Source of the DNA: Acetobacteraceae bacterium
Lineage (GTDB): Bacteria; Pseudomonadota; Alphaproteobacteria; Acetobacterales; Acetobacteraceae
NCBI GenBank assembly: GCA_025352375.1
Contig: JANXTL010000019.1
Location: 1-45,821, forward strand
Direction of reading: 5' to 3'
DNA: 45,821 nucleotides
The notes beneath the pieces are model-generated. The model was not told where the DNA came from. It searched no databases and saw only the letters and a list, made by a program, of their open reading frames with translations. Position numbers and translations under genes: made by a program. The number at the start of each line of letters is the position of its first letter. Within the stretch, counting starts at the first letter, position 1. Shown here in pieces: positions 1,703 through 5,206 of the stretch.

Positions 1703-3265
1703 ATGCCAGTTTTCCAACAAGGCGGTATCAATACCACGGCCTTGATCGTCCCCGACCTATACGTCCAAGTCGTACCGCCGCAAAATCTTATTCTTAATGG
1801 TGTTCCGACAAATATCGTTGGCATGGTGGGGACGGCGTCTTGGGGGCCGGCCGGAGAACCGGTCATAATCTCCACGATGGCCGACTATAATGCGACTTTC
1901 GGCCCTGTTGTCGCTCGTCAATTCGACATGGGCACGCAGGTGGCCACCGCAGTCCAGCAGGGCGCGCAAGATTTCCGTTGCGTACGGGTTACCGATGGAA
2001 CAGATACCGCAGCTCAATCCAGTCCGCAGGGCTCTACCGTAACATTCACCGCAATGTTCACCGGGTCTCTTGGCAACCAGCTTGTCGTTACCCTGCAGCC
2101 TGGTTCGAAGAACTCAACCTGGCGGCTCGTGGTTGGCCTCGCTGGCGCGCGCCCTGAGCTCTACGACAACATCGCGGGAACCGGTGCTGCCTTTTGGCTC
2201 AATCTCGCGACCGCGGTTAATGCAGGCCAGGATCCCCAACGAGGACCTTCGCGGCTGATTACGGTCAATGCGGGTGGAGCAACGGTGCCTCCCGCCGCCT
2301 TCTCGCTATCTCTAGGCAACACGGTGCCGGGTACCGATGGGGTGGCTGGCGTCGCCACGTCACAATTGATCGGGCAAGATGGGACGGCGCGCACGGGGCT
2401 CTATGCCTTACGAGGTCAAGGATGCGGCATCGCCCTGATCGCGGATGCGGCCGACCCGGCCGGTTGGACGTTGCAGGCAGCTTTCGGGTTGCAAGAAGGG
2501 GCCTACATGATACTCACTGGTGCATCGGGTCAAACGATCCAGAATGCGATATCCGCGGTTCATGCATCAGGCCTCGATTCCTACTCCGCAAAACTGATGT
2601 TTGGCGACTGGCTGTGGTGGTCGGATCAGACGAACGCCACAATCCGATTGGTGTCGCCGCAAGGGTTCGTGGCCGGCCGACTAGCAAATTTGTCCCCCGA
2701 GCAATCCAGCCTCAACAAACCGATTTATGGCGTACTGGGTAGCCAGAATTTTGGGGTCCCAGGTTCCGGCCAGGCGACCGCGTATTCGGTCGCAGATCTC
2801 TCTGCGCTTTTGAGCGTCGGGCTCGACATCATATGCAATCCGCAACCGGCCGGAAGCTTTTGGGGTGTTCGGGGGGGCCGCAATTCTTCATCCAATGTCT
2901 CGACTAATGGTGACAACTACACCCGCCTGACGAATTACATCGCCGCGACCTTATCGGCCGGAATGGGTCTGTATGTCGGCCAGGTCATTAACGCAACGCT
3001 ACTGCGCCGAATTCGGGCAACGCTGTTATCATTCCTCCAAAACATGCTAAACCAGGGGATGCTAGGTAGCGTTACCGGCGCGCTCCCATTTAGCGTTATT
3101 TGCGACGCGTCGAATAACCCCGCCAGCCGAACTGGGCTTGGTTATGTTCAGGCGGACATCCAGGTTCAATATCAGGCAATTAACAAAATCTTCCTCATCA
3201 ATCTGGAAGGCGGGCAGACGGTAAGCGTTTCGACGCAGACCCTGCCTTCTGGCCAGCCAGCTTAA
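1703..3265 (+). CDS. contractile tail sheath protein
   Basis: A 520-aa protein that fits the phage tail sheath family (P2 gpFI / Mu-like). It opens with PGINTTALIVPDLY-type sequence (here QQGGINTTALIVPDLYVQVV), the usual sheath N-terminus, followed by VGMVGTASWGPAGEPV, a hallmark of sheath proteins. The C-terminal part contains RRIRATLLSFLQNMLNQGMLG, typical of the conserved sheath domain that docks on the tube. It would assemble as a helical outer tube and shorten on contraction to drive the inner tube into the target envelope. An RBS-like GAGG lies about 9 nt upstream of the ATG. The tube gene follows after 12 nt, the standard pairing. This is the strongest evidence that the module is of contractile (myovirus-type) origin. 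Confidence 0.93.
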   Translation: MPVFQQGGINTTALIVPDLYVQVVPPQNLILNGVPTNIVGMVGTASWGPAGEPVIISTMADYNATFGPVVARQFDMGTQVATAVQQGAQDFRCVRVTDGTDTAAQSSPQGSTVTFTAMFTGSLGNQLVVTLQPGSKNSTWRLVVGLAGARPELYDNIAGTGAAFWLNLATAVNAGQDPQRGPSRLITVNAGGATVPPAAFSLSLGNTVPGTDGVAGVATSQLIGQDGTARTGLYALRGQGCGIALIADAADPAGWTLQAAFGLQEGAYMILTGASGQTIQNAISAVHASGLDSYSAKLMFGDWLWWSDQTNATIRLVSPQGFVAGRLANLSPEQSSLNKPIYGVLGSQNFGVPGSGQATAYSVADLSALLSVGLDIICNPQPAGSFWGVRGGRNSSSNVSTNGDNYTRLTNYIAATLSAGMGLYVGQVINATLLRRIRATLLSFLQNMLNQGMLGSVTGALPFSVICDASNNPASRTGLGYVQADIQVQYQAINKIFLINLEGGQTVSVSTQTLPSGQPA

Positions 3266-3277
3266 CGGGAGCAACAA

Positions 3278-3706
3278 ATGTCATTTACCGCTTTCTCGGT
3301 CGGACGAGATACTCAACTGGTGGTCATGGTACCGTCGGGGCGTATCGATCTGACATACGTGACTGCCTTTGAAAGCCATCAGTTGACCCAATCCGTCAGA
3401 GTGAGCCGGATGGACGGCACCCATATGGGCACCGAACTTCCAAAGGGTTGGGAGGGTGCCTTCGAACTCGACCGCGGAAACTCTGCTGTCGACGATTTTA
3501 TCGCAACGACTGAGCAACAATACTATAATGGATTAGGCTCGGCCAACGGAACCATGTATCAATATATAACCGAACCGGACGGCTCGACTTCGACCTATCA
3601 GTATGATGGAGTTTCGTTCCGCTTGGCCGGTGCCGGAACCTGGCGAGGAGAGTCCAGCGTAAAGCAGAAGCTAGAATTCTTCGCAACAACCAGGCGGCGT
3701 ATCTGA
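3278..3706 (+). CDS. tail tube protein
   Basis: A 142-aa protein directly after the sheath, matching the size and position of the major tail tube protein (P2 gpFII-type role). It has no membrane segment and reads as alternating beta strands: GRDTQLVVMVPSGRIDL, then THMGTELPKGWEGAFELDRG, then LEFFATTRRRI at the end. The pattern resembles tube proteins in which hexameric rings stack into the inner tube. GGGAG lies just upstream of the ATG. The stop overlaps the next gene as ATGA, so tube and chaperone are likely translationally coupled. The identification rests on size, gene order and strand pattern rather than on a diagnostic motif. Confidence 0.85.
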   Translation: MSFTAFSVGRDTQLVVMVPSGRIDLTYVTAFESHQLTQSVRVSRMDGTHMGTELPKGWEGAFELDRGNSAVDDFIATTEQQYYNGLGSANGTMYQYITEPDGSTSTYQYDGVSFRLAGAGTWRGESSVKQKLEFFATTRRRI

Positions 3707-4041
3707 TGACCCCGACCGCTACTGTGCTTGAATCCGCGAATGAGCGGTTGTCCGCATCGGATCAGACCGGTCGTGCTATCATAGCGCGCCGGCTGAATGC
3801 GCTGGATAAGTTAAGATTACTGAAAGCCGCTGGTCCCATGCTTTCAGAAAATCAGGCATGGCTCGGTGTCGCGATGTTGGCGGCGTCTGTCGTTGAAATC
3901 GATGGAATTCCGGTTCCAATGCCCACATCTGAAAAGCAAATCGAAGCTCTCGTCGCGCGACTGGGCGATCCAGGGCTGGACGCTGTGGCCACCGCTATTT
4001 CGGACCACGATAGTCCGTCGGGGCAATCCTCGGGAAACTAG
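3706..4041 (+). CDS. tail assembly chaperone, short (zero-frame) form
   Basis: A 111-aa, largely helical acidic/neutral protein starting MTPTATVLESANERL, with RRLNALDKLRLLKAAGPML and ending SGQSSGN. It lies between the tube and tape-measure genes, where P2 gene E and lambda gene G are found. Members of this position are helical chaperones that coat the tape measure during tail assembly and are absent from the mature particle. Directly before its TAG stop the mRNA reads G GGA AAC, a canonical -1 slippery heptamer, and the -1 frame continues for 67 codons. This gene therefore most likely makes two products: this short form and a longer fusion (see 4038-4241). The start shares its A with the tube stop (TGATG). 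Confidence 0.85.
   Translation: MTPTATVLESANERLSASDQTGRAIIARRLNALDKLRLLKAAGPMLSENQAWLGVAMLAASVVEIDGIPVPMPTSEKQIEALVARLGDPGLDAVATAISDHDSPSGQSSGN
4032..4038 (+). promoter_or_regulatory. -1 programmed ribosomal frameshift slippery heptamer (G GGA AAC)
   Basis: In the zero frame the codons are TCG GGA AAC TAG, so the heptamer GGGAAAC fits X XXY YYZ with X=G, Y=A, Z=C and lies immediately before the stop at 4039-4041. It differs by one base from the GGGAAAG known to cause the frameshift in lambda G/GT. After a -1 slip, reading resumes with CTA GCA CGG and stays open to TGA at 4239-4241, which overlaps the start of the next gene. The in-frame -1 stop at 4011-4013 confines the slip to 4014-4041, exactly where the heptamer lies. 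I see no strong downstream hairpin, and lambda also works without one. Confidence 0.85.
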
Positions 4042-4241
4042 CACGGCACCCTGACCTGCTCGATTGTCTTTATCTGATCAGGAACGGGGTGCCATTCGAT
4101 ATCGCGTTCTCCCTGCCCGCCGACGACCGGCAGGTATTTGTCGTCGCGCTCGGTACTTTAGACGGGCAACATTTCGACTGGGCCACCGGACGATGGCATG
4201 ACAGCGCCTCCCATCCTATTGCAGCCACGGCCAGCCGATGA
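4038..4241 (+). CDS. frameshift extension of the tail assembly chaperone (T/E'-like domain)
   Basis: The -1 frame relative to the chaperone gene is open from 4014 to the TGA at 4239-4241. After slippage at 4032-4038 it adds 67 residues beginning LARHPDLLDCLYLIRNGVPF, with FDIAFSLPADDRQ and FDWATGRW later, to give a fusion of about 178 aa. No ATG is present in this frame before the stop, and the only internal GTG would cut off the conserved-looking opening, so independent translation is unlikely. In lambda and P2 the extension recruits tube subunits to the chaperone-coated tape measure. The stop overlaps the following ATG as ATGA, so ribosomes that shift end exactly at the tape-measure start, which may couple the two steps. 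Confidence 0.8.
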   Translation, partial: LARHPDLLDCLYLIRNGVPFDIAFSLPADDRQVFVVALGTLDGQHFDWATGRWHDSASHPIAATASR

Positions 4242-5206
4242 ATTTTGATCTCATGAAGAGCAGTTCGCAGCTCGCGCTGCCCAAATGGCTAGTGATAAAA
4301 CTCCCGAGATTGACGTCGTCGCGAATATCCGACGAGCCATCCCAGGTGTATCCTAACCGTCAGAGGTTGGCGCCGCCGGGTCGACAATCGCAAGCCACCA
4401 CACGGCCCTCCGGCCGCCTTGCGTCTGACTTTCGAACCGGGTCTGCCCCCTCGAAGACACCACACGGCGGCCCTCTTCACTCCAATGGCCAGAGAGGTTC
4501 CAATGTTCAAGGCACGAGCGCATTCAGTTTCTTACCTTCGTTACGGAACCTTGTACAGGTCCCGAATTCGCAGCACCGGCCGTCTCGCTCGCATCCTGCG
4601 CGACCGCCCTCGTCGGAACCAGAGCGCCCGCGCCTAGCCGGTTTGCCGGCGATGCATGTATCTGCGCGAGTAGGCGCTGGTATGGCCCAGGTCCATCTAT
4701 CGAATATCCCGAACGACCCCCTTCACATCGGTGTTCTACGAGAGCAGCCGGGGGCCATTACATCCAGTACAGCCGCGTTTTCGCGTCACCAAACTCCGGG
4801 CGGTGGAAGTATGACAGCGCCGTTGGCAATTTCGCAAGCTCATGGAACTCCGCCCCCTCCAATACGTAAGCATCGGGCGGAGACATATGCATCTCCACAG
4901 CGCTCGCATGCCCCTGTCAGGGCCGCCATCCTTAATTCAACATCGCCCAACCGGATCGGTGCCAATGCGAGCGATAGCCAACCGGAGGAATCCGACACGA
5001 CCAGCGCAAGCTCGACCTCAAGAATTGAGAACAATACGTCAGCTGAATCCAACGCACACACCACTGAGGTTTATATCGACGGGCATGCCCTGGGCGACTG
5101 GATGCTTCATCATCTGGAACAGGCTCTCACTCGACCACCGACCTCAGCAAATTTCGTCATGAGTCACGGCATACCTACCTGGCCTGGCCAGTCTCCGTTC
5201 GTCTGA
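4238..5206 (+). CDS. short, disordered tape-measure-like tail protein (tentative)
   Basis: A 322-aa ORF occupying the tape-measure slot between the chaperone pair and the gpU/gpX genes, starting at an ATG that overlaps the chaperone extension stop. Residues 1-270 are rich in Ser, Pro, Arg, Thr and Gln with no long hydrophobic helix or coiled coil, unlike classical tape measures. Only the last 50 residues look folded: EVYIDGHALGDWMLHHLEQA, then a Pro-rich end (IPTWPGQSPFV) that recalls C-termini of phage tail proteins. If it is the ruler, the known proportionality of about 0.15 nm per residue would give a tail of roughly 50 nm, short for a contractile tail. It could also be an adaptor or a reduced remnant. 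Composition is unlike all its neighbours. Confidence 0.5.
   Translation: MNFDLMKSSSQLALPKWLVIKLPRLTSSRISDEPSQVYPNRQRLAPPGRQSQATTRPSGRLASDFRTGSAPSKTPHGGPLHSNGQRGSNVQGTSAFSFLPSLRNLVQVPNSQHRPSRSHPARPPSSEPERPRLAGLPAMHVSARVGAGMAQVHLSNIPNDPLHIGVLREQPGAITSSTAAFSRHQTPGGGSMTAPLAISQAHGTPPPPIRKHRAETYASPQRSHAPVRAAILNSTSPNRIGANASDSQPEESDTTSASSTSRIENNTSAESNAHTTEVYIDGHALGDWMLHHLEQALTRPPTSANFVMSHGIPTWPGQSPFV

Follow-up and report, generated by a model that had tools for sequence, protein, structure and literature searches.

The 45,821-nucleotide stretch of Acetobacteraceae DNA analysed in this work (the window; contig JANXTL010000019.1 of assembly GCA_025352375.1) contains a short gene for a putative tail assembly chaperone, which stops directly behind the heptamer GGGAAAC and is overlapped by a second open reading frame (ORF) in the -1 frame. 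The question raised by this locus is whether two proteins are made from it by programmed -1 frameshifting, as Xu, Hendrix and Duda are said to have described in 2004 for the tail assembly chaperones of tailed phages, and which signal would direct the shift. Comparison with homologous loci makes it very probable that programmed -1 frameshifting at G GGA AAC yields a minor fusion protein of 178 amino acids beside the major chaperone of 111 amino acids.

Rereading of the sequence bore out what the initial annotation had described in the window. The chaperone gene (the core, in the zero frame) ends with TCG GGA AAC TAG, the heptamer touching the stop that closes at 4041, and the open stretch of the -1 frame runs from 4014 to 4238, with TGA at 4239-4241 behind it. 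The part read in the -1 frame (the extension) appears to have no start of its own: its first ATG, GTG or TTG is a GTG at residue 18. The TGA of the extension overlaps the ATG (4238-4240) of the next ORF.

The homologues compared were collected in three ways. Ninety-one loci (L002-L092) were chosen by the core alone: 30 from a genome search of the family, 60 picked from the same list, and phage phiKX1, the locus of the window being included. Loci L093-L123 came from a core profile search, and L124-L203 were the best 80 of 93 matches by the extension. These 202 pairs reduced to 122 distinct core and extension pairs (90, 8 and 24 by source). Loci found by a 23-base DNA pattern were kept out of the 122, because the pattern contains the signal, and were counted only in a larger set of 330 pairs. 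In one locus, L284, the extension is present without the core, and the contig begins there. The start-codon, ORF-overlap and tree counts were made on 118 rows and the codon test on 112, of which 106 have an extension starting with Leu; 50 of these 106 were used in the folding test.

The initial annotation had proposed comparing homologues for joint conservation of the heptamer and the -1 frame, and the comparison favoured its reading. A related extension adjoins the core in all 91 loci chosen by the core, in 90 of them at -1 and in L069 at +1. None of the 122 distinct pairs has core and extension in one frame; 121 are at -1 and one at +1 (0, 328 and 2, respectively, among the 330 pairs). The frame relation read from these sequences is more than chance. 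A heptamer of the XXXYYYZ type was found in 119 of the 122 pairs and is GGGAAAC or AAAAAAC in 112; phage phiKX1 has AAAAAAC TGA at the site. On a quick tree of the 118 cores the first triplet of the heptamer was switched at least 11 times. The sole distinct +1 pair, L069 (the same sequence as L202, from Endobacter medicaginis), is without a heptamer and its core ends with GCT TGA; its frame may be shifted by +1 or -2, or the copy may be broken.

The position of the zero-frame stop also proved to be conserved. It directly follows the heptamer in 90 of the 122 pairs and lies one codon further on in 6, six codons in 22 and thirteen codons in 1, the remaining 3 having no heptamer. The number of abutting stops expected from the amino acids and the codon use of the family was 17.6 (standard deviation 3.7) for the 106 Leu-starting extensions, against 85 observed. 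Ser after this Leu was encoded by AGY in 79 of 79 cases, as compared with 34 % elsewhere, and the Leu itself by CTA in 14 of 106, as compared with 3.2 % of CTN codons elsewhere. Such codon use suggests that a stop next to the heptamer has been selected for. Since the rows are kin, these codon and stop statistics are strong but are not exact tests. The same tree requires at least 16 changes of stop position and at least 14 in the identity of abutting stops; the repeated changes of identity indicate that the stop was kept while its letters changed.

A further element was found downstream of the stop. Bases 2-60 of the extension fold better than resamples with synonymous codons, z being below -1 in 50 of 50 sequences and -3.23 on average, and no excess folding was seen by the same test for bases 2-40 (z -0.31) or 41-110 (z -0.35). 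A single helix was found (Table 1); the hairpin of the window has a predicted energy of -26 kcal/mol (z -3.16). In 110 of 111 rows, L078 being excluded, 96.9 % of the cells were paired, with two-sided (compensatory) changes at four pairs. None of 500 shuffles reached the stem in any of five measures and slid partners paired in just 36-50 % of cells, although some slid versions had as many two-sided changes as the stem, or more. Codon choice in the arms is narrower than the protein would require: Val is GTG in 109 of 110 sequences (48 % elsewhere), Gly is GGG in 102 of 110 (29 %) and His is CAC in 101 of 106 (51 %). Eighteen atypical or distant rows were folded separately and 16 were retained after exclusion of L048 and L123, which had been cut at the wrong place. 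The stem formed in nine of them (L182, L057, L200, L193, L087, L075, L198, L082 and L203), in L198 and L082 at the same place with other letters, and was absent from seven (L201, L063, L077, L069, L072, L079 and L078). The abutting stop and the downstream hairpin are, on this comparative evidence, conserved parts of the site that the initial annotation had not named as signals.

The identity of the core as a chaperone agrees with its predicted fold, whose best match is the tail assembly chaperone of HK97 (2ob9) and which is also like YqbN (3klu), with identities in the aligned part of 10 % and 9 %, respectively; the predicted fold is chaperone-like. The extension is conserved as a protein. The median ratio of nonsynonymous to synonymous substitution rates (dN/dS) over 300 pairs was 0.18, an approximate figure because the stem lowers dS, and by this measure the -1 frame is under purifying selection. 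No convincing match to the extension was found in scans of Pfam, NCBIfam and PHROGs, and it would therefore probably escape annotation and proteomics. Its score against DUF6631 (PF20336) was 18.6 bits, and that of the fusion 14.7 bits, below the curated cut-off of 27 bits; at E 0.05, a single one of 38 extensions matched the same domain. In the phiKX1 record the extension is annotated as a separate hypothetical protein (BCZ76064.1, L092:20330-20509), which starts at an internal Met and is without the first six residues of the extension.

From the signal, its conservation, the covarying stem and the selection seen in the alignments we infer that the shift occurs, and likewise its rate, the action of stem and stop, and the role of the products in assembly. 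Ribosomes positioned on GGA AAC would meet the base of the stem-loop 6 nucleotides downstream. Most of them would be released at the stop adjoining the heptamer, and in a fraction both tRNAs would re-pair one base back, on GGG AAA, after which the extension would be read. If the division of labour is that of lambda gpG and gpGT, binding of the tape measure would fall to the short form and recruitment of the tube protein to the fusion. The genome of the window has 48 tRNA genes, 30 of them typed, including tRNA-Lys with anticodons CTT and TTT and tRNA-Asn with GTT. A lambda-type GGGAAAG may be less slippery in this host because AAG has its own reader, tRNA-Lys CTT. A more speculative proposal, put forward tentatively and rather doubtful, is that release-factor activity at the A-site stop, with the ribosome held by the stem, competes with slippage and so sets the ratio of the two chaperone forms, as a -1 analogue of prfB control in a phage-derived and perhaps domesticated cluster.

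Other explanations of the split frame were weighed against the same data. A sequencing error or a decayed gene, i.e. a broken chaperone and no programmed event, could by itself account for a split frame in a draft genome; the homologue comparison already contradicts it, with the same split and the same signal in 121 of the 122 distinct pairs from many assemblies and purifying selection downstream of the shift, and its probability is close to nil. The extension might instead be a separate protein, translated from its own start or by ribosomes that re-initiate behind the abutting stop, as the separate coding sequence in the phiKX1 record and the presence of ATG, GTG or TTG up to residue 5 of the extension in 19 of 118 pairs could suggest. 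The initial annotation had named homologues with a destroyed heptamer but an extension conserved behind its own start codon as the case that would speak against its frameshift reading, and 99 of the 118 pairs, the window among them, have no ATG, GTG or TTG up to that residue (115 have no ATG). Separate initiation would also have no need of the heptamer, which was retained through the switches of its first triplet, and this explanation is considered very unlikely. A real but transcriptional shift, with the polymerase slipping on a run, would suit the six A of the AAAAAAC homologues; GGGAAAC, present in the window and in most homologues, is a poor run for polymerase slippage, the tandem phase is exactly -1 in both forms of the heptamer, and a downstream stem is a feature of the ribosomal type. 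This makes polymerase slippage even less probable than separate translation.

The most serious of these alternatives, still an unlikely one, accepts the frameshift and takes the stop and the stem as by-products of the protein sequence without a role. The arms of the stem do encode conserved R-H-P and G-V-P motifs. The codon choice nevertheless exceeds what the protein demands, in the GTG and GGG codons of the arms as well as in the excess of AGY and CTA, and the stem shows two-sided changes and is formed with other letters in L082 and L198. Two observations weigh against a uniform signal of this kind, namely the stop lying six codons downstream in 22 of 122 pairs, which also fits the by-product explanation, and the lack of a heptamer in 3 of 122 (L048, L069 and L201, the last having GGGGGAA before the stop). 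On balance, a frameshift of the G/GT type with a different signal, made up of an XXXAAAC heptamer, an abutting stop and a stem-loop, is strongly favoured.

In lambda the G/GT heptamer is G_GGA_AAG (PMC7618472). The present locus resembles it in the place of the chaperone between a tail protein and downstream tail genes, in the -1 shift near the end of the gene, in the C-terminal extension and in the XXXYYYZ pattern, and differs in that the heptamer ends with AAC, not AAG. The mean distance between slippery site and stop is 26 nucleotides in the SEA-PHAGES set and 36 in the phages of Xu (PMC10885494), whereas the usual distance here is 0. The shift in certain tailed phages seems to need no stimulators (PMC5009743), in contrast to the conserved stem-loop described here. 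The sequence identities to the HK97 and YqbN proteins are the low ones given above, and the tail here is contractile, having a sheath; a frameshifting level of 6-7 % was given for two genes of an HK97-like chaperone cluster (PMC3711429). The same two heptamers, G_GGA_AAC and A_AAA_AAC, occur at the g-t sites of the haloarchaeal viruses HCTV-1, -2 and -5 (PMC5009743), which, unlike the source of the window, are siphoviruses of archaea, and both are among the shiftiest heptamers with mammalian ribosomes.

Abutting stops were described for barley yellow dwarf virus (BYDV), red clover necrotic mosaic virus (RCNMV) and groundnut rosette virus (GRV) (PMC4737148) and for Rous sarcoma virus (PMC4373837). 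At the polymerase sites of luteo-, diantho- and umbraviruses the stop lies at 0 or 3 nucleotides, with a 5-nucleotide spacer and a stem-loop stimulator, and the change of the stop to a sense codon in pea enation mosaic virus (PEMV) cut frameshifting by 72 % in vitro (PMC4737148). In human immunodeficiency virus type 1 constructs an added stop lowered frameshifting and release factor competed, so the effect of abutting stops across published systems is mixed. The likeness to the BYDV, RCNMV, GRV and PEMV sites, a stop at or near the heptamer together with a stem-loop, is one of layout without homology, since those are plant RNA viruses with eukaryotic ribosomes and other heptamers. A heptamer, stop and hairpin in this arrangement are more familiar from certain RNA viruses than from the tails of phages. 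A phage-tail case with abutting stop and stem was not found in a literature search made mostly without subscription papers, so earlier publication is possible.

Table 1. Features of the chaperone locus and its neighbours in the window
Feature	Position	Strand	Basis
Tail assembly chaperone core, zero frame, 111 amino acids (predicted)	3706..4041	+	ATG 3706, TAG 4039-4041
Slippery heptamer G GGA AAC (putative)	4032..4038	+	sequence; GGGAAAC/AAAAAAC in 112/122 distinct pairs
Abutting zero-frame stop TAG	4039..4041	+	abuts in 90/122; 85/106 vs 17.6 expected
-1 extension, 67 codons (4038-4238) + TGA	4038..4241	+	conserved protein, median dN/dS 0.18
Downstream stem, 5' arm, 6 nucleotides past heptamer	4045..4053	+	folding, covariation
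Downstream stem, 3' arm; 31-nucleotide loop separates arms	4085..4093	+	folding, covariation
Next ORF, 322 amino acids, start overlaps stop of extension	4238..5206	+	tape measure by position only
Tail sheath	1703..3265	+	PHROG tail sheath, E 8.9e-44
Probable tail tube	3278..3706	+	gene order; PHROG 12993 (function unknown)

The chaperone lies between the sheath gene upstream and baseplate genes downstream, the tube and the tape measure being placed by position only. The initial annotation had taken the next ORF as the tape measure. Its position fits this role; no convincing family match was found for it in family and PHROG scans, and the overlap of its ATG with the TGA of the extension recurs in 83 of 118 homologues, where the ORF that overlaps frequently has no more than about 100-127 amino acids. 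In the window the ORF in this position is short and, by its look, Pro- and Ser-rich; matches to it came from only 4 of 80 loci. As the initial annotation suggested, frameshifting may also tune translation of this next gene.

In two loci from the same genus (L208 and L209) the cluster spans terminase, portal and major head protein genes, followed by the tail genes, and the head-and-contractile-tail cluster occupies L208:5997-13576 and L209:13588-18541. One flank of it holds tgt and queG, the other a gene for a thiamine pyrophosphate (TPP) enzyme, recA and a gene of the FlhB family. Among 97 loci compared, tgt is next to the terminase in 8, and in most of the rest the left flank is too short for a decision; the loci concerned are L208/L209, L177, L181, L183, L186, L187, L189 and L190. 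The product of tgt leads to queuosine on tRNA-Asn, which reads the slip codon AAC, and this adjacency could be a second input to frameshifting or a coincidence. Window positions 18951-45821 and L388 show a right flank of host genes common to the window and genome G156, at a chromosomal site other than that of the tgt group. Such fixed sites within clades suggest that the cluster is vertically inherited, and it is therefore possibly a domesticated prophage or an element like a gene-transfer agent. Among isolated phages, phiKX1 carries a relative as well.

Of 397 genomes sampled across the family of the window, 162 (its own genome included) matched the core. Matches also came from 119 of 299 genomes of an order sample, all 119 belonging to this family, and from 2 of 385 genomes of a class sample, namely the genome of the window and one further member of the family. 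The extension search also gave relatives in Rhizobium lusitanum, an Elstera assembly, Limnoglobus roseus and Zavarzinella formosa, and the exact 23-base signal pattern occurred in at least 120 IMG/VR stretches. The last two species, both planctomycetes, have the chaperone, AAAAAAC and the stem (L193 and L203), which would point to cross-phylum transfer or to mobile relatives. Two copies mirrored on one contig of 81,092 bases (L135 and L136; CAIYCW010000145.1, G240:C145) are probably an inverted-repeat assembly artefact.

The comparison of homologues provides evidence that the frameshift site of a tail chaperone can be equipped with a complete stimulatory signal, comprising heptamer, abutting stop and covarying stem-loop. 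The family, whose members use two heptamers and place the stop 0, 1 or 6 codons on, offers natural material on whether an A-site stop promotes -1 slippage in bacteria or competes with it.
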